DNA of 42,500 nucleotides, from positions 45,001-87,500 of the forward strand of contig JAHBMJ010002075.1 of NCBI GenBank assembly GCA_018398765.1. The letters are read 5' to 3'. Both the position numbers and the translations under genes were made by a program. Of this stretch, positions 6,001 through 31,360 are shown piece by piece. The notes beneath the pieces were generated by a model, which was given only the letters and a program-made list of their open reading frames with translations, was not told the DNA's origin and did not search any database. Source of the stretch: Chromera velia (Eukaryota; Sar; Chromeraceae). Every line of letters starts with the position of its first letter. The first letter of the stretch is position 1.

Positions 6001-9000
6001 CCTTCTGCGGATCTCCTGGTGACCGTTCGATTGACCGCCTTGCCTCGAATGTTCTTCCCTCTCGCTCGGGAGAACAGCGGAGGGACCACAGGCCCTCCGG
6101 GTGTCAGAGGGAGTGGCGGGGTGTCTGTGGCCAATGTGCCGAGAAGCATCGAGACTTTGGGCATGGACAGAAGTTTCAACAGGGGAATGAGTTCGCAACG
6201 GACTCCCAACAACGCAAGCGGGAGTGTGTGGTCACCCCGGTCCATTTCTAGCAGGACGCCTCAGGGTGCAGCGTCTGTTTCAAGACGCATGAGTTTGGGC
6301 AGTCGGAGCAAGAGCAAGTTAATGGGAACAAGCAGACAGTCGGAGGGAAAGTCAATCCTCCTGGGGGGCACATCTGCGACTGGGGGGCTGAACGCAAGCA
6401 TGAGGATACTCGCAGAGGGATCCCGAGACCAAGCGGGGGGAGACGGAGGTTTCTCTGAAGTGTTTGCAACTAGCGAGGTTGAGCTGTCCTTCGTTCTTTG
6501 GGATTTCTCTGAGGTGCGTGCGTCACGTCAATGAAACATCAGACTTTTCCCTGTTCATAAGATCGTTTTACGTACTTGTCACGCGCAGTGAAGAGAAAGG
6601 AGCGTCGGGCTTTGACCATCTACGAATTGACTTCAAACGCTTGTTGGTCATTCGAAGTCTTGAGTCATCCACAAACCTGCATGTGCCCATGATCCCTCTT
6701 TTCCCTCTTGTCCCGTCTGTTTGTTACAGTTCGTGCTTGCTGCTCGTGATGGTTTGGCGCGTCTTGTGGCCTGGCTGAACGCCCTCGAAAGCCAGAAAAT
6801 CCCGGCGATAGGGGGGATCCTCAGAGACGCAAAGGCCCCCTCAGGAGGTCGATTCCTCTCTGCATCTCCACACAGGGGGGTAGGATTTCTAGTGGACGAG
6901 ATTCTGCACATTTTGCAGAGTGAACAGAATGCAGCCAGGAGGGAAGAGGGAGAGGGCAGCAGAGCTGTGGAGATTTTTGGGAAGAAAAATGCCGATGAGA
7001 GAGCAACAGAAATTCTCGGTCAGTCGACGCACGCACTCACACACCTTGCAAGCACTCGTGTCTAGCTGTGTAATTTAATTTTGCACTTCATATATTCATT
7101 TATTCATTTTTCAGCTTTTTTCTCTTCATGTATTGTTTGTCGCTTTGAAAAATCTTCCTTCACCATGAAGGGTGGAGTCTGTCTGACGTCAACCTGGACT
7201 CGGCATGAAATGCTGACCTTTCCATCTCTTTACTGCATGCTCTGCCGTTACACGCTGAGTGCACCAGTCCCGCTTAATTCACAGTGCATGGCTCTTTCTG
7301 GTGAGTTTGATCATCCTTTCCCTTCTACCTCTCTGCATGTTTTCGTGTGCATGCATGCAGTGTCTGAGCTGAAGGACGAGGGTTTCCGTTCCATGCATTT
7401 AGTTTCATTTATTTCTGTATGAAAGTAAATGCATGAAACGTGTGTATGCAGTGTCTGAACTGAAGGACGAGGGTCTCCGTTCTATCAGAGCCTGGCACCT
7501 CTCCCAGCAGAGCGCTCTCGCAAAGGGACGACAGCAGGGAACGGAAGAGACGATGGTGACGCCTCCCAGCAAGATTCTTCATTTGCTCACAGGCCCCAAT
7601 AGGGTGTCGCCCTTCTTTCAGAACCTTCTCACGACCGTAGCCACCGATGTGAAGGTCAAAGAGGTTGAAGACTCCGATTCCGATGACAGCAGTAGTGAGG
7701 GAGACGAAACCAAAGCTGAACCACAAAACGCAAAACCACTCATGGAAGTTCTCGACCGAAAGCGAAACCGTTCAGTCCACCAAAAACCAAACCCAGCAGA
7801 ACCCATGACGGCCATGACCCCCACTCTCGCAGTCATGGACTCTCTCTTCAAAGGAATCGCACCCCTCGGGTGCACAGCTTCTTTTCAGAAACTGGGCGTG
7901 AGTCCCCGAAGAGGGAGGACAAAAAGTGACGCACGCATTTCCCCCCCCTCTGCAACAGCAACAGCTCCAGGAGGAGAGAGAACGAATCTACCTGGGAACC
8001 GGAGGACACAGAGGGACCCTCTAATTAAGGAGCAGGCCCAACCAGTCACTGCCCTGCAGCCCGCGCCCTGTCCTGCCCTTGCATCTTCTCACAAGAGCTC
8101 TCGGAGCGTTGCGGCCGCAATGAAGTACATGCCCTCAGACGCAGTCGCAGAGGAATGGATCCCTCTACCACCCGTCAACCCGCCCTTCGAGGTTCCTGAA
8201 CCCCACATAAATCCATCATCTCCACCTGCCCTCAACTTCTCCTCCCGTCCATCCTCCCCTTCCATGAGAGGGAGCAGACCCGGAACAGCAGAGGCCAACG
8301 AGGGGAGGGAATCGAAAGGGCTGCCCCCTTCCCCCCGCTGTTTCCACCTATCACCCAGCCAACGCCATAGAGCCGCCTCCGTCTCTCTAGACGCCAGGCC
8401 GAGGTCCGAAGCCATGCACCCCCCCTCAGAGATAGACGACGAGCTCAGCCGAAGCGGGTCTGCCGAAATGGACCCTCATGTGCTGCCTGAAGAGGACAGC
8501 AGACACGGGTGGGTACAGGAAGGGCGGGAGAGAGGGGAAGCAAGGATTGGAGGGAAAAGTCCCCCAAGAGCCTCAACCACTGCAGAAGGACGATCTGAAG
8601 AAAGGGGATTGCTGCTTCCCGAGACTGGAGAGGACGGGGGTGGGGTTACTGTTGAAGAGTGGGTCCGCACTCAGACACGGGACGAGAGGTCAGAGGGGCA
8701 GCCGAGGGAGGAGAGCAATGAGAGAATGGAGGCGAAAGGAACTGATCAGGAAAGGAAGAGGGAAAGCAGTGGAGAGATTGAACGAGAACAGGATCCCGAC
8801 GAGAATCAGTATTCTCCTTACCCTTCACACAAAGAAGAGCACGAGAGAGACTGGGAGGGCGATGACCAGACGGAAGAAATGAGAATAAGGAGACGGCAGC
8901 AGACCCCTCCTAGAACCGCACCTTGTTGCTCTAGAACAGCAGCAAGCCAGACGTTCAGACATGGAACATGCGGAACTGCCACCCGAATCGAATTTCCCTT

Positions 9001-22814: not shown

Positions 22815-24540
22815 ATCATCATCATCATCATATGCGTTACATAATGCGTATAATTAAGACTAGTGTTTAGTGATTAGTGATTGGTGGTGCCCTAAAGCAC
22901 TGTCGCCGTTTTGTCTTATAGTGATTAGTGATTAGTGGTGCCCTAGAGCACTGTCGCCGTTTTATCTTATAGAGGTCGCCCCCATAAACGGCAGGGGGGT
23001 GTACCTCATCGCTGAGGCTTAGACCACACCCCGTGGCCTGCCTGGTTTCCCAGGCCGCTAACAAACAACAATCTATCTGCGCTTTGCATGTTTTGGTCTA
23101 TGGGCTACTCAGAAGGGACTGCTCCAAAAATCGATCCAATAACATAGGACGAAAGGACACTTTGGCTTTGTGCACGCCCTCTCTCCATTCTTCTCTCAGC
23201 GATTTCTCCTTTTCCGTCCCTCAGCTGTCTTCCTGCTTCCATTGCTTCCAGGATGGTCTTGTATTCTTCTTTTTTTCTTTCTGTAACAGTCACTTCAACT
23301 TCCTCCCTTTCTTTTTGTGATCACTCCGTGTCTTTGTGCCAGCACTGTTTCATCTAACGAGCTTCCAGGTACGTACCTTCCTGGGCTTTCCTTGAACACT
23401 CTTCTTCTGAACGCTGCCCTCCTCAGAAACTTATCCACCGTACTATGCCCTTCGTTCATCAAGAATTTGAACAGAGCCTCAGTGTGCAGTCTTCCTCTTT
23501 ATCCTTCTCTTTTCTCTCTGCAAACTTCTCTTGCTCTCTTTTTTCTTCCCTCGTTCCAGTCTGCTCGCAATGTTCTATATATGTGCGCTCTTTCTCTATC
23601 ATAAATCAGACACTCAGTCAGCAGATGGATCTCATCCTCCAACACCTCTGTTTCCATCAATCATTTGCAAAAAGGGCAGAGTCTCTCTTCCAATAGCACT
23701 CTCTGCCCTCCTCTTTCTGGCACTTTTTTCTTTGTTCCCGCTAACGTCCTGTTTCCTACTCTGCAGGCTGCTCTCCTTCTGTGTTCTCCTCTTAGTGCTA
23801 CCCTTCCATAACAAAAGGACACCCATCCCAGTTTTTCTTTCTCTATTTTCATTCCCTCTCTTGGTCTTTCTTCTGACGCCTTTTCAAACAAAATGAGCTG
23901 CAATCTGTTTCCGTTTGCTTTTGTTCGGTGTATGTGTGCCATATGGAGTTTTCTTCCTTTTTCTCTCTCTCTTCTATCTCTCTCTCTCACCCTCTTCTCA
24001 ATTCTCTACCTGAAGATTTCTTTCTTCCTCTCTTTTATTTCTTTATCTGTCTTGCTTATAATCCATCTTTCCATCCTATCTATTCTTTCATTCACTGCGT
24101 GTGTCCCTATCTCTCCTGGCTGGCCTGCGGGCTTCTCTTTTGAAAAAGGATGAAGGCCTCTCTCTGTGAATAGTGCGTGTGTGCATTTTTTTAAGTGCAG
24201 AAAGAAGTGAAAGGGGTGTAACTCTATTCTTCTTCCCCTCTTTAGTTCATCCTCCACTCCTCCTTTCAAGCAATGAATGACAGCCTGCCCAATCGCCTCC
24301 TTCCTCTTTTCTTTCAGTACCTTTCTTGCCCATCTGATCGTCCTCTCTGCCACTTCAATATCAATTGGAAACATCCCTCCCTCCATCAATGTAGTGTCTG
24401 CACTTTCTGTCTTCCTTAGCCCTAAGACCCACCTCATAAAGCGTCTTTGTTTTTTATTGAATTCTGCACAGGCCCTGTCTGTGCATAGGTATATCTTGCA
24501 TGTATACATCCACACTGCATGCACCGTCTATCGGGTAAAA
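22815..24540 (-). mobile_element. 5'-truncated LINE-like retrotransposon relic
   Basis: Minus-strand coding remnants resemble the C-terminal part of a non-LTR reverse-transcriptase polyprotein. The segment 24524-24009 reads FNKKQRRFMRWVLGLRK then a GGMFPIDIEVAERTIRW stretch, like the region after the RT domain. Further along, in the same frame, comes LCPFCK (about 23680) followed by DEIHLLTECLIYDRER (about 23640-23590). This is a CxxC...HxxxxC zinc-finger-like tail typical of many LINE ORF2 proteins. In-frame stops at 24006 (TAG), 23661 (TGA), 23499 (TAA) and 23295 (TGA) break it, with no frameshift needed between the first three. Homology starts abruptly at about 24540, at an AT-rich boundary, as expected for 5' truncation. 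An (ATG)n tail at 22815-22831 may mark the 3' end. No intact protein is possible. Confidence 0.6.
22870..22971. repeat. 51-bp tandem duplication
   Basis: Two head-to-tail 51-bp copies (22870-22920 and 22921-22971), each with GTGATTAGTGATT and GCACTGTCGCCGTTTT cores, differ at three positions. They lie in what would be the 3' region of the LINE-like relic. Confidence 0.9.
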
Positions 24541-24790
24541 GGTTTAAAACTCGGGTTGGCCACGAACTTGGCCTTCAAACTCTAGTTCAAACTAGGCTAA
24601 ATTTAGTTGCTAGTCTTAGTGCTAGTCTTAGTGGCTTGGTATGGATGGCAGACTACATCCCATGAATCAGCATATCATTCATACGCAGCACAAGCATACT
24701 GCTCTAGAAGTAGAAGAGCTAGTAGAAGAGTTTAAAAAGAAGCATCCTGTCATGATCTTAGTTGAATTAAGTATAAAATTATGTATATTC
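24541..24790. other. AT-rich spacer, no gene seen
   Basis: Short AT-rich spacer between the LINE relic boundary and the outer inverted-repeat element, with AGTCTTAGTGCTAGTCTTAG direct repeats near 24613. No coding signal. Confidence 0.6.
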
Positions 24791-25874
24791 AGGGTTGTTA
24801 ATCACCGACAACCGGAAGTACCGAAAAACGGAACTGACTATCAATTTCATTTTTTTTTGTAGCTTTCGGTGCTTTTTCGGTGCTTTCATCACTGGTAAAA
24901 ATTTTATATACACTGTGCTGTTAGGAGTAACCACCGGCCCTTCTTAGAAAGCTTTTGGTTACCATTAAATTGGTAATCAAAACTTAATTAATTGGTAACT
25001 AAGGGGGTCTGAGGGGATTACCACTACCGTGGTAATCTGGCTGTATCTGCCCATAAATGTGTTGCATCAAGATCTAATATAGGAGAAAGGCATCTTTAAA
25101 AACTATGTACGAGTATACAGTATAACATAAAAAAGATCATTTTTAAACTTTTTTTGTCTAAGTTGTTTCTATATAATATCAAGAACTTGACTTTAACTTA
25201 CATATACTTACACATATTTCTAGACATAAGGGAACTTTACAATAAATCTATCTTTGGTACTCGATTTACCCACTAATTTGTTTTGCTTAAAAGAACGATT
25301 ACCACTAGCTGTTTTGCTTACCGAAACAACAGTAATCAATGTGACTCTGCAGGATTACCGTAACCATGAAAATAGTTACCGAGCGGCCTAACGGCCGCCT
25401 TGGTAACCAAACTAAGTTGGTTACTCCTAACAGCACAGTATAATTTTATAAGATAAAGTAAAGATAAAGCCTTAGACTATTGCATCTATAGTTGGGCCCG
25501 ATGTGGAAAACTGGCTGTTCTGGAGTCAAAACTCTAGAAAGAGAGCCATGGCGGGCCCGGCGATGAGCGGGGCAGAGCAGGGCAGGCCTGCGCCGGCCCG
25601 CGTGGCGCGATGTCGATTTTTTAATTTTTTCTATCGTTTTTGACTCATTGTTAGTCTATGTTAGATGAAATTGAACTTTAACCCAGGCTTTAACTAAGTT
25701 TGTTTTTAGTGAAAAATCCTAGAATCCAGTCATTGTAACGTTATAAAGCCTAGTAAAGCCTAGTTTAAGCAAAATTTTTAAGATACCGAAAGTACCGGAC
25801 CACCGGTACCAAAAAACGGAACCACTCCCCCTTAAAGTACCGAAGTACCGAAAGACACGGTACTTAACAACCCT
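24791..25874. mobile_element. Outer inverted-repeat element (host of a nested insertion)
   Basis: The left end AGGGTTGTTAATCACCG (24791) is matched by an inverted copy ending at 25874 (reverse complement AGGGTTGTTAAGTACCG). The first 11 bp are perfect, and both ends are followed by clusters of ACCG / CGGTACTTTCGG-type motifs. No ORF for a transposase is seen, so this would be non-autonomous. A clear target duplication is not visible. Removing the nested 533-bp insertion leaves about 540 bp. The right half includes a short GC-rich patch (about 25540-25615) that contrasts with its surroundings. Confidence 0.55.
24909..25441. mobile_element. Nested 533-bp TIR element (MITE-like) with 9-bp target duplication
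   Basis: The terminal inverted repeats share TGTGCTGTTAGGAGTAACC at both ends (left from about 24914; right, inverted, at about 25419-25437), with only one mismatch and one extra base near the very tips. Identical 9-bp AATTTTATA flanks occur at 24900-24908 and 25442-25450, consistent with a target-site duplication. The interior is AT-rich, with many GGTAAC/GTTACC and GGTAATC/GATTACC motifs in both orientations, and has no ORF. A 9-bp duplication fits Mutator-like elements, but the superfamily is not certain. Confidence 0.75.
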
Positions 25875-26823
25875 CAGGCTGTATAATATATTTTTTACTA
25901 TAAATCAAAGTGAACGGCTGTTATAAAAAACCAAACTGCCTCGTATGTTACCACCAAACGCTAGACGCTAGGCTAGACGCCTATTTACTAGCCTATCTAT
26001 CATAGGCCGAGGGCGATGACGTATAATGATGATGATAAAAATCTAGTAAGTGAATCTAACATACGGTTTTTTACTTTAATATGCTTCCATCACAGTGATG
26101 ATCACACCGTCAATTCCACGGTACCAGGAATTACTTTCAGCAACATTCAAATCTAAAGTTAAAAATTGACTAACTAGTTGATTAAACAGCTTATAGTTGT
26201 CTGCATGGCTTCTATAGACTGTACGTATGTGTTCTAATTGAGGCATCTAAGGCCCAGCTTCCGATATTCGAGGAAACTGAACAATCTGCATGGTGGCCCG
26301 TGGTGGGCAGAGGACTTTACCCAAATCACCCCGATCCATCGATCGACTCGGACAAACTTGAGTCACGCTTTTCGAGCAACACACAAGGTAACACATGTTA
26401 TACGCTTCATATGCTGGCATGCACACATACATGAATGCATTGACTCTTGCGTCACTCCTCTCCTGTACATGTCGGGTGCATGCAGCACAGAACCAAAAAG
26501 ACTTTTCACACATGAATTTTTCATCAAAAAGAAAGAAAAACAGTCTGCCGAACATGAACTTCAACAGTGATCGAGGGCAAACAAACATGAGTCCATGCAG
26601 CTCCCTAATACACAAGGTGCTTCCTTCATCCAAGCCCTCAATGCGGATTCGCACAAAACACAAACAAGACACGAAAACAGGCAGACACGCTTGAAACCTG
26701 CCAGCAGGCCCCACCGTTTGGTTGGACCCGACTTTCAATCACTATCAGTTTTCGAATTTTGAAAAGCAAACACTTATGCACATTCACATAGTCACCAAAA
26801 ACCTCGCACCCCCCCTTTCTCTG
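25875..26823. other. Intergenic 3' flank of the carrier gene
   Basis: The first half is AT-rich with an ATGATGATGAT tract at about 26026 and CTAG motifs. From about 26240 the composition becomes gene-like, but open frames on both strands show no recognisable domain. The part next to 26824 is probably the 3' UTR of the minus-strand carrier gene. No gene is called. Confidence 0.5.
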
Positions 26824-27658
26824 CTATCTTGGTAGTTCTTCCCGCTGTCTTTCTGCCTTTGAGTCTGCGTATCTTTTCTTGAGGCCCTCCCAGACGACCA
26901 GAGTAATGGAGGCATGCGGAAGGAACCGCATGAAGAACGCAGTGGCACCACTCCAGAGAGTCAACACGCCTTCGTGTCTGACTACTTTCTGCAGGAGGAC
27001 GCAAACACATCCACAAGACATGCGTTTACTTCCATACAGAATTCTTTTCATATTGTATGAAAATTCTGTATGAATTCTGCATGAGAGAATTCTGTATGAA
27101 AGTAAACGTCTGACTACTTTCTGCAGGAGGACGCAAACACATCCACAAGACAAAAGGGACAGAGGGGATGGAAGCGGGATGGAATAAAGTCAGATGGAGA
27201 AGGTTTTGCGGCTCCCTTTCCTGATTTTGTCCGAGATGCCCGACGAGGAGGGCAAGTTTCACCTTTTTTTTTAGCATCGGCAGACACTTCGTCACTCAAA
27301 GACAGCTACAGGAGTGGAACAAGACACCGACCGCCGCATGCCGAGAAAAGAACAAAAAAAAAGATTCCATTCGTACGATCAAACAAACACACAAACAACC
27401 AAACGGACAGACCCACCCACCTGCACGCAGTCCACAGCGGAGGAGTAGTGATGGGTCCCTTGAAACCCCTCAGCAGCCCCTTGAGGAAGCTTCAACACAT
27501 CCGACAACGCCCCTCTTTGTCGCTGCAGACAGACAGACAGAAACCACACGACAGATGAGCGTTGAAGAAAATCACAAGACAACATGTCTGATCAATACAA
27601 ACACAGAAACACAGAAACACTCACACGCGCGCGCACACACACAGAGAGAGAGCGAGAG

Positions 27659-27701
<43 letters not shown>

Positions 27702-28072
27702 CCGACAGACAGACAGACAAATACAGACACAGACGGACAAAACAAAAACACCTCTCAGCCTCTCGACAGTCTCTCTCGAGAGACGCAAAACTGTGAGTAA
27801 CCCGATCTGCTTCCCCATCCTAACTTACTTGAAGTCTGCTCATGACCAAATCAAACGGCGTTGAGACTAGAGTCAGGACTGAAATCGCAACCACGCTCGC
27901 GACCCCTTGAGAAACGTGGTCATCCTTCATCCCCATCTTCTGCGTTAAATACTCCTTTGCCGTTCCGTAGACGGTCAGCTGGACCCCTGCACACATACAG
28001 ACGGACGCACACAAATGTGATCAGAAAGAGACGTATGCAGAGTCACGGGATGCACACACACACACACGCGCG

Positions 28073-28126
<54 letters not shown>

Positions 28127-29335
28127 CAGACACATACACAGACACATACACAGACACATACACAGAGACGTGCACCCTCGATCGTCAGAAATCCAATGAA
28201 CTCAGGACCGTCGAACAATTTTGCCAGACAGACTCAGATACCACCCCTCAACTCTACCGATGCACCAAGCGTCCCCTGTCCGTTCTTCTGAAACCAACCG
28301 ACCGGAGCCAATCATCACTCGTGGCACTGCAACAGACGCGCCTCGCAAAAGCCCCGGGACGCCCTCTCCTCTCAGAATTTCTCGCAACTCTGTTCCCATG
28401 CTCTTCCCTGCACTGGCTGCTGCTGCTGCTGGTGCTGCAGGGGCTCCCCCGACGGCCATGGGTTTCCTCCCGCTCGATTTATTTTCGAACACGTTCGGCA
28501 ATTCGTCCACAGAGTACACGGCCTGCTGGCGGTTCTTGATCACTGCCAGCGGGTTTGCTGCACGCATATAAATGCCGCAAGGCGAAGAAACACACACACA
28601 TATATACATGTTTGCAGACTGGGAAAACGGTAGTCAAGCAACACCCAGACGGGCAGGCAGGGACGGATAGACGGAGGGAGGACCCACTCACCGGATCAGA
28701 AAAGCAGAGGTACAGTGCAGCCTTTTCTCTAAGGATCGGTCCATGCCACGAACCGCCAACCTGCCTGCCTGCCTGTGCCTGCCCTTCTGCCTGCCTGTCT
28801 GACCTACTGACCCAGAACGGATCCACAGATTCCTGCCATCATGCCGGCAGCCATTCGGTCCTGCAATTTGATCACGCGGGTACAGGCATGCCCGTAAGGA
28901 AAGACACAGTGTCTTATATTCATCCAGCATCAGGGGAGGTGGGGAGGCTGCCTGACTGACCAGCACGCCCCCATCTGATTCGTTAGCGGCTCTGAGGGCC
29001 CTTATTTGTGCATAGAAGAAGTCGAAGGAGGCCAGTCTGACTCCATTGAAGGCAAACTGGTAGCTCAGAAAGCTCCAGGCCCCTTTGTAGAATGCATTCG
29101 GGCCTTCATTTCGAAGAATGGAAGAGGCTACACTCAGGTACCCTTCCGGCCTGACGCCCACTGGCTGAACGACCCCCCTTGTCTGAATTCGTGTCTTGAT
29201 GACCTCTAAAGGATTGGTGAGAAGACCGGCGAAAGAGGCGGCACAACCGCCCAGAATTACGTTCTCCCCAAAGGAGACGCCTACTGCATCAGTAGGAGAC
29301 GAGGAAGAGGAAGACGACCCTGTCACTGCAGGCAT
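26824..29335 (-). CDS. Mitochondrial carrier (SLC25), OAC1/SLC25A34-35-like, 367 aa
   Basis: Inner-mitochondrial-membrane solute carrier, three tandem repeats of about 100 aa. Exons in transcript order: 29335-28961, 28860-28812, 28557-28303, 27986-27829, 27522-27421, 26988-26824; sum 1,104 nt including TAG. Signature motifs: repeat 1 NPLEVIKTRIQ (P42, E44, K47, canonical); repeat 2 NPLAVIKNRQQ (acidic residue replaced by A146); repeat 3 TPFDLVMSRLQ (P270, D272, final K/R replaced by M275). The repeat 2 and 3 departures, plus HHYSSAVDC and HEGVLTLWSGATAFFMR, match the oxaloacetate/sulfate-type OAC1 and SLC25A34/35 branch (family knowledge). Substrate is therefore inferred to be a dicarboxylate or oxaloacetate-like anion. 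Ser-rich N-terminus, no obvious cleavable presequence. It is divergent from TVP23, with 562 bp between start codons. Confidence 0.8.
26976..27152. repeat. Palindromic mini-element between duplicated acceptor junctions (copy P2)
   Basis: Perfect 45-bp direct repeats (26976-27020 and 27108-27152) each span the 3' end of carrier intron 5 and the first 13 bases of exon 6. Between them is an 86-bp palindromic element, arms 27023-27045 and 27086-27108 (22/23 complementary), with smaller GAATTCTGTATG repeats inside. In transcript (minus) orientation the distal copy at 27152-27108 is a decoy acceptor, and the 27020-26976 copy leads into the real exon 6. The arm core TTCTGTATGAAAGTAAA (27090-27106) is identical to that of copy P1 in the giant gene. 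Confidence 0.85.
27621..27720. repeat. CA/CG then GA microsatellite in the carrier intron
   Basis: Intron 4 of the carrier gene holds CACACGCGCGCGCACACAC followed by a long GA run and GACA units. In transcript orientation it is a TC-rich tract ending in TGTG. Confidence 0.95.
28051..28170. repeat. CA/CG, TA and ACACAGAC microsatellite in the carrier intron
   Basis: Intron 3 of the carrier gene contains CA and GCGC alternation followed by a TA run (about 28108-28126) and four copies of CAGACACATACA-type units. Alternating purine-pyrimidine stretches like this can adopt Z-DNA or cruciform structures. Confidence 0.95.
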
Positions 29336-30548: not shown

Positions 30549-30852
30549 CAGCGACCGGAAGGGTCGTTCTTCTTTGTTCCTCTCTGAAAATTGGAGAGAG
30601 GAATCTGGGAGACGGAAAGAGGGAGGAGAGACTGTCCCTTTTGATGAAATTTTCCGTCCGTACAGTGACAATGAACTCTTGTTCTGTAACATGACATGAT
30701 TTGTTTGGTTCTTTTTGATGCGTGAGCTTTGTTTGACCCTTGTCTGTAGTGCTTGGCGCGCCTTGCTCCGTTTCTCCTGTGGCCTATGCTTATGAAGCTT
30801 CTGCATTCCTTCCCATCTCTGCCTCGCTCCCACTTCCTTCCCCATGCCACCT
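30549..30852 (+). other. TVP23 3' flank
   Basis: Directly downstream of the stop. Contains GGAGAGAGGAATCTGGGAGACGG-like purine-rich sequence, then becomes increasingly pyrimidine-rich toward the minisatellite. Likely 3' UTR; no polyadenylation signal was identified with confidence. Confidence 0.4.
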
Positions 30853-31360
30853 CTTTTCTTCTGGGCTCTTCTCCCCTTTCTTATCTCTCAGCTTTGTTAC
30901 TTTTGTCCCATTCTCTCACCTCTTTTCTTCTGGGCTCTTCTCCCCTTTCTTATCTCTCTGCTTTGTTACTTTTGTCCCTTTCTCTCACGCCTTTTCTTCT
31001 GGGCTCTTTTCCCTTTCTTATCTCTCAGCTTTGTTACTTTTGTCCCTTTCTCTCACGTCTTTTCTTCTGGGCTGTTCTCCCCTTTCTTATCTCTCTGCTT
31101 TGTTACTTTTGTCCCCTCCTCTCACGTCTTTTCTTCTGGGCTCTTCTCCCCTTTCTTATCTCTCTGCTTTGTTACTTTTGTCCCTTTCTCTCACCTCTTT
31201 TCTTCTGGGCTCTTTTCCCTTTTCTTATCTCTCTGCTTAGTCACTTTTCTCCCCTGGACTTCTTTCATCTCTGTTTTTTTGGGTTCTTCTCGCCTTTCTT
31301 ATCTCTCTGCTTTGCCAATTTTCTCACCCTCTCTCAGCTCTTTTCTTCTGGCCTCTCGAG
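30853..31360 (+). repeat. 69-bp pyrimidine-rich minisatellite, about 7 copies
   Basis: CTTTTCTTCTGGGCTCTT begins units at 30853, 30922, 30991 (variant), 31059, 31128 and 31197, spacing 68-69 bp. Degenerate units continue to about 31360. Each unit includes CTTTCTTATCTCTC and GCTTTGTTACTTTTGTCC. Because the unit is nearly a multiple of three and almost stop-free on this strand, several forward frames stay open. I treat these as by-products, not genes. Confidence 0.9.

Follow-up and report, generated by a model that had tools for sequence, protein, structure and literature searches.

Short inserts with inverted arms and long target duplications are dispersed in the genome of Chromera velia

A splice acceptor duplicated around a short insert

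How does a gene come to carry the end of its last intron twice, with a short hairpin-forming sequence between the two copies? The question is raised by a mitochondrial-carrier gene in the window, i.e., the 42,500-nt stretch of Chromera velia DNA analysed here (contig JAHBMJ010002075.1, positions 45,001 to 87,500). The gene lies on the minus strand at 26840-29335 (both ends approximate; ATG near 29335) and was recognised by Pfam Mito_carr (PF00153). Its first coding piece matches PF00153 with an E-value of 6.8e-17, and the translations of exons 5 and 6, joined across the acceptor, match with an E-value of 9.6e-10 over a stretch that spans the join; a 53-amino-acid exon piece gave no PF00153 match (two of the three scanned pieces match). 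The minus-strand acceptor reads TCCTCCTGCAG and is followed by the exon, starting at 26988.

It is this last intron/exon junction that is duplicated. Two identical 45-mers are located at 26976-27020 and 27108-27152, at a start-to-start spacing of 132 bp, and confirm the perfect 45-bp direct repeats that the earlier note had described around an insert. In the orientation of the gene, 26976-27020 is the downstream copy, the acceptor of which continues into the exon, and 27108-27152 is the upstream copy with a second, possibly decoy, acceptor (first exon base 27120). With exon starts at 26988 and 27120 and the PF00153 match, the claim of a duplicated splice acceptor in a carrier gene holds on the minus strand. 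Should the upstream acceptor be used, read-through of the duplication plus insert (26988-27120, minus strand) would add 132 bp, or 44 codons, free of stops.

The 87-bp insert between the copies (27021-27107), supported by repeat finding, folding and flank scoring, consists of an arm, a mosaic centre and an inverted arm. The left arm, TGCGTTTACTTCCATACAGAATTCT (27021-27045, plus strand), has one mismatch with the family arm described below; the right arm (27086-27107, minus strand) is the left-arm sequence inverted and contains the 17-mer TTCTGTATGAAAGTAAA. As delimited by repeat finding, the arms measure 30 nt, are 87% complementary and extend a few bases into the target copies. The centre is composed of pieces of the same sequence as the ends. 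The minus strand of the insert folds at -34.9 kcal/mol (z -10.1), and none of 200 shuffles folds as well. An 86-bp palindrome had been announced here: its inverted ends are confirmed, but the length is 87 bp and the palindromy is confined to the outer ends.

A dispersed family of inserts with long target duplications

In the genome (177.8 Mb in 4,040 contigs), the 17-mer TTCTGTATGAAAGTAAA has 622 exact occurrences (303 + 319), as compared to 0 for the reversed 17-mer used as a control. The 29-mer arm with up to three mismatches occurs 770 times and the 15-mer core 1,086 times; all three numbers count arms, not insertions. The genome also gave 58 matches to light-harvesting proteins and 11 to alveolin-type repeats (a family that matches a Caulobacter control as well), which, together with its size, suggests a photosynthetic alveolate and agrees with C. 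velia; one light-harvesting protein compared to the PDB had 660 relatives, without indication that any was from the same species.

It had been proposed to inspect other occurrences of the 17-mer for long flanking duplications, and the outcome is strongly positive. Of 95 arm clusters, 92 have a flanking direct duplication with an alignment score of at least 15, as compared to 23 of 285 points taken at random in these loci (medians of 35.5 and 8.5, respectively); a second target copy lies within 160 bp in 92 of the 95. These clusters are of different sequence and were taken, with up to one mismatch in the 17-mer, from the matches listed (about 100 per search); several are members of the same tandem array, and two sites at gaps or edges (L028 and L038) were dropped. 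Three clusters scored below 15, namely L027, L050 (13.5) and L057. Six more places, none of them used before, were selected by nothing but the 15-mer core, and all reached a score of at least 15, two of them narrowly (16.0 and 17.5). They came from the top of the 15-mer list and had one hit each, multi-hit places being left out.

At single sites, 73 of 75 score at least 13. Their duplications measure 15-68 bp (median 39, interquartile range 29-46) and their inserts 30-106 bp (median 60). This set remains after 62 of 137 clusters were set aside as possible arrays, by a flag that is raised, too, by palindromes in which another arm lies close. The insert at 27021-27107 belongs to a dispersed family of non-coding, ultra-short sequences with long target duplications, and the family members bear out the idea of a mini-element with an exceptional target duplication.

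By flank scoring, the window contains a second member. Its 43-bp target copies at 7352-7394 and 7443-7485 (91% identity) enclose a 48-bp insert, GCATTTAG...AAATGCATGAAACGTG, at 7395-7442. Many assembly k-mers exceed some 45 bp, which would speak for an artefact of short-read assembly; nevertheless, such an artefact is so improbable as to be negligible, given that duplications occur in many independent places, with two members in the window alone, and that the target copies have diverged (median identity of 0.947 at single sites).

Nine clusters in 125,922 flank bases would extrapolate to about 12,700 insertions per genome, an estimate good only for "thousands, rough", as at least two of the nine (L017 and L049) were on the locus-selection list. 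Flank and insert are repeated together in tandem in 15 of 74 loci, in up to eight copies with a 68-bp spacing.

Structure of the inserts and how they may have formed

From the outside inwards, the common arm reads (TG)TGCATGC[A/G]TTTACTTTCATACAGAATTCTTTTTCAGGGAGCG(CTC), about 42 nt. It is often shortened, is present at one or both ends of most inserts and is inverted between the two ends. By the criterion used, and with array members included, the arm both begins and ends the insert in 37 of 128 cases, is found at one end only in 66 and at neither in 25. Outer starts lie within 13 nt of the arm, and inner extents vary from position 14 to 44. After GGGAGCG, CTC comes next in 20 of 39 arms and is then continued as CTCT (12) or CTCC (8), suggesting a template that ends near there; five of the 39 arms that reach the GGGAGCG end are from L116 and three from L123. 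The internal join GCGCTCTGTAT recurs in 7 of these 39 arms, and other shared internal 14-mers in up to 9 of 73 inserts; recurrent joins could reflect either repeated jumps at the same microhomology or inheritance from a parent insert.

End-to-end siblings are rare: among inserts of 28-130 bp, compared in pairs with a length ratio of at least 0.75, 2 of 115 have a sibling at 95% identity or above and 8 of 115 at 90% or above. The sibling pairs shown at 0.90 or above consist of inserts with a single arm and a length of about 30 bp. Since the arms form much of each insert, many inserts (86 of 115) have a sibling at 0.75-0.90. Rather than being copies of a single fixed element, the inserts have the arm as their constant part. 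Some are built of several units. The insert in contig C836 (L116) carries the 26-mer core five times and is flanked by 25-bp target copies with a single mismatch, a duplication that was read from the sequence directly, since the automatic alignment, its bounds too wide, scored 8.0; head-to-tail joins also occur in L120 and L127. A subgroup (L118, L128, L129, L141 and L143) has a different outer arm, ATTCATTTTCATACAG, with the inner core in common. In the one-armed inserts of L021, L025 and L018, the other side is a run of at least 10 A or T.

The two arms of one insert tend to agree. Of 29 inserts with a readable A/G variant, 27 have the same one in both arms (Fisher p 5.5e-6), and the dinucleotide next to the core agrees in 36 of 64, with 26.5 expected, which implies that, in many inserts, both arms stem from one template variant or one arm was copied from the other. 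Variants common to both arms, inverted arms with conserved outer ends and the recurrence of some internal joins also speak for a MITE, moved by a transposase with an unusually wide and variable staggered cut, the internal variety being due to later decay or internal deletion. Like MITEs and foldback DNA transposons, the inserts are short, often with inverted ends, and have many dispersed copies and a target duplication. MITE target duplications are fixed and short, unlike the variable ones of 15-68 bp found here, and the scarcity of end-to-end siblings, the many inserts with an arm at one end or neither and the several-unit insert of L116 are further departures; we regard a MITE as unlikely.

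Microhomology is evident where insert and target meet. At the outer junctions of single sites it averages 1.51 nt (63 sides), as compared to 0.51 (sd 0.11) after permutation, with none of 5,000 permutations as high; with array members included, the mean is 1.87 nt on 109 sides versus 0.76 permuted (0 of 2,000). Where the arm is shortened on the outside, 1-4 nt of its missing end tend to be provided by the adjoining target. Beyond the arm, 117 of 249 positions match the inverted target, against 67.7 after permutation, a significant excess that is confounded with the junction microhomology. In the second member of the window, the right end of the insert (7433-7442) reads ATGAAACG, a near inverse of the adjoining target end CGTTCCAT; fold-back copying predicts this, but it is a single case and the general test is confounded.

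Our best reading of this structure, which we put at about an even chance, combines a staggered break of about 40 nt, priming on a short template, a jump or fold-back, and end joining. A nuclease or paired nicks would cut the two target strands about 40 nt apart. One of the 3' ends of the target would then pair, through a few nucleotides, with the terminus of a short RNA or single-stranded DNA template that resembles 5'-GAGCGCTCCCTGAAAAAGAATTCTGTATGAAAGTAAATGCATG, and be extended; a template species of about 42 nt would end in GTAAATGCATG. The polymerase may next jump to further copies of the template, or the new strand may fold back at a short palindrome, GAATTC or GAGCGCTC, and copy itself, and thus produce the inverted second arm. 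Finally, end joining across the break and fill-in of the overhangs would give rise to the long target duplication. Duplicated flank and insert may later expand as a tandem array. The copy of the splice acceptor in the carrier gene would be a by-product of insertion, and an insertion spanning the junction would be survivable because the whole junction is duplicated. The hairpin-primed template switch envisaged earlier comes close to this scheme without being identical to it. Counting against the scheme, a transposed palindrome would likewise account for the agreement between arms, and this agreement is incomplete (see the dinucleotide).

The duplication step has a parallel in breaks with complementary 3' overhangs, which yield small tandem duplications by fill-in and end joining (PMC8355091) and so support it. 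The same paper describes small duplications from paired-nick breaks, and these would equally suit pure host repair, where a polymerase-theta-like pathway mends staggered breaks with filler from the abundant genomic arms and no dedicated element exists. Junction microhomology and mosaic centres are in keeping with such repair. Scanning of 301,661 bases (overlapping loci counted twice, and the loci chosen for holding an arm) revealed 70 duplication-plus-insert events with an arm versus 12 without. Read by eye, the 12 comprise five tandem repeats, three family variants or array members and four with unexplained filler, i.e., without a recognised arm or tandem repeat. These four events (L036 at 1866, L037 at 1191 and 1661, and L072 at 831), whose duplications measure 24 to 82 bp, favour host repair; the excess of events with an arm goes against it, as does the outside of the filler, where one particular end of one particular sequence is found in most cases. 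Host repair alone appears decidedly unlikely to us.

A further point against the staggered-break reading is that, among the matches listed and the loci fetched, we found no enzyme, template RNA or autonomous partner. Reverse transcriptase (RVT_1) is abundant in the genome, with 1,759 first-look candidates, 150 of which were scored; no reverse transcriptase match in the fetched loci is tied to the arm family. Several candidates were rejected. A 2.8-kb pair at C1386, considered as the two ends of an autonomous element, resolved into a couple of small inserts, distinct from each other and both flanked by a duplication of their own. A 20-mer gave 0 exact matches in viral_contigs, searched for a viral source. 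The three loci compared to known RNA families returned mostly hairpin-like microRNA matches, none of them at the Rfam gathering score, and a search for a GIY-YIG (Penelope-type) endonuclease returned one weak match.

Tentatively, and with more doubt than confidence, we suggest that the arm is a mobile unit at the lower size limit: a gene-less template of about 42 nt, spread by broken ends that prime on it, jump or fold, and are re-joined. Each insertion made by such a cycle would have a centre of its own and would duplicate about 40 bp of the target. If this were the case, minisatellites and duplicated splice junctions would be seeded continually.

Splice junctions in the targets and comparison with known systems

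Does the family seek out splice acceptors? We compared 100 targets, as reconstructed empty sites, with 1,823 control windows located 80-480 bp away. The most enriched 5-mer is TGCAG, present in 42 of 100 targets versus 15.7% of the windows, and in 30 of 98 versus 12.0% after 6 bp were trimmed from each end. The second-most enriched (untrimmed) is CAGGT (20 of 100 versus 7.1%). ATGCA is enriched as well (32 of 100 versus 16.3%), so that priming, or the end of the arm, may contribute part of the TGCA signal. Acceptor-like sites are present in 35 of 100 targets versus 18.0% of the windows, an approximately two-fold enrichment. The acceptor pattern without TGCAG shows no significant enrichment (12 of 100 versus 10.9%). 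Among three donor patterns, a single one is enriched (11 of 100 versus 4.7%, p 0.008); in the same targets and windows, neither the other two donor patterns nor three control motifs are significantly so. Altogether, 78 of 115 duplications contain neither an acceptor nor a donor motif. An earlier splice-site score was uninformative, its thresholds too high (0-9 hits per 100).

The sites were also placed relative to coding sequence, with a rough classifier that is weak: the last exon of the carrier gene scores 0.11 and an intron 0.06. At its lowest threshold, 15% of 75 sites have coding sequence on both sides, versus 30% of 444 controls, and 45% on one side, versus 35%; at the three higher thresholds, the one-sided share of the 75 sites is not above that of the 444 controls. 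Among places not inside exons, the share at exon edges is 0.53 for the sites and 0.50 for the controls (lowest threshold, weak classifier), so tolerance of junction-spanning insertions may suffice and targeting, though conceivable, is not needed. As far as this weak classifier can tell, loss of insertions in exon bodies can explain a similar enrichment of junctions. No significant bias towards lengths in multiples of three was found (13 of 28 acceptor sites); the 132 bp at the carrier locus do not represent a family rule.

These data bear on an introner, or an acceptor-targeting element, that creates or lengthens introns. The predominance of TGCAG in the targets favours it, as does the acceptor-like TTTCATACAG within the arm itself. 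The enrichment is only about two-fold, however, 65 of 100 duplications are without an acceptor-like site, and neither exon edges, nor one-sided coding contexts at higher thresholds, nor insert lengths single out acceptors. Introners (of Micromonas, Aureococcus, Symbiodinium and Amoebophrya) resemble the family as short repeats, some with inverted ends, in algal or alveolate genes. They are introns themselves and have short flanking repeats, of 3-9 bp in the earlier-described families (PMC9860276) and of 3-5 nt in Amoebophrya (PMC7789003). The insert at 27021-27107, by contrast, adjoins the acceptor, present twice, of an intron that already existed, and a junction motif is missing from most targets of its family. 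We consider an introner or acceptor-targeting element highly improbable. The earlier proposals that the element targets or copies acceptors, and that the locus is an early step in intron gain or lengthening, find no support: a donor pattern is enriched along with the acceptor-like sites, and the sequences give no sign of intron creation.

There is also a likeness to non-LTR retrotransposons and SINEs that insert by target-primed reverse transcription (TPRT), above all those with a restriction-like endonuclease (CRE/SLACS, the R2 group and rotifer R9). There, as in our reading, the target primes the copy; target duplications are variable and sometimes exceptionally long, and one end is conserved with the other variably shortened. 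For rotifer R9, an "exceptionally long target site duplication" is named in the title of a work cited in PMC3636483; end-to-end template jumping by the R2 reverse transcriptase is the subject of a work cited, by title, in PMC2881922, which itself treats microhomology at retroelement junctions; and 15 recent SINEs of Entamoeba have duplications of 21 +/- 5 bp (PMC2996970). The insert family differs in its template of only about 42 nt, its copy often present at both ends in inverted orientation, its dispersed targets and differing centres, and in having no reverse transcriptase or endonuclease linked to it.

The small tandem duplications by CST/Pol alpha-primase (PMC8355091) share the fill-in of complementary overhangs that is expected under the staggered-break step; they are plain tandem duplications, whereas the inserts have a specific sequence between the copies. 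The bacterial IS1202 group also makes unusually long target duplications, of 16-28 bp in one subgroup of the family (PMC10132070), but consists of coding insertion sequences with a transposase, unlike the non-coding inserts of C. velia. The published C. velia genome (193.66 Mb in 5,953 scaffolds) contains about 30 Mb of transposable elements (PMC4501334); the string "palindrom" is absent from the main text of that paper. We found no title describing the insert family in the literature covered, most subscription journals being outside its scope.

If the staggered-break reading is true, a single genome preserves hundreds of natural insertions, or more, as a record of the filling and joining of breaks with a stagger of about 40 nt, in which the length of the overhang can be read straight from the target duplication. 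The family would then place the size limit of a selfish sequence very low, would constitute a source of minisatellites (flank-plus-insert arrays in 15 of 74 loci) and would show duplication of a splice junction without evident gene loss.

Other repeats were observed in the window. At 22868-22972, a tandem duplication (period 51 bp) has its copies side by side, without an insert. A pyrimidine-rich minisatellite is located at 30847-31213; its spacings of 138, 143 and 207 bp indicate a unit of about 69 bp. At 24778-25887, inverted repeats are nested: an inner pair of 25-nt arms (24909-24933 and 25418-25442; 96% complementary) is enclosed by a weaker outer pair (24778-24807 and 25858-25887; 73% complementary), a nest that looks like one DNA transposon within another.
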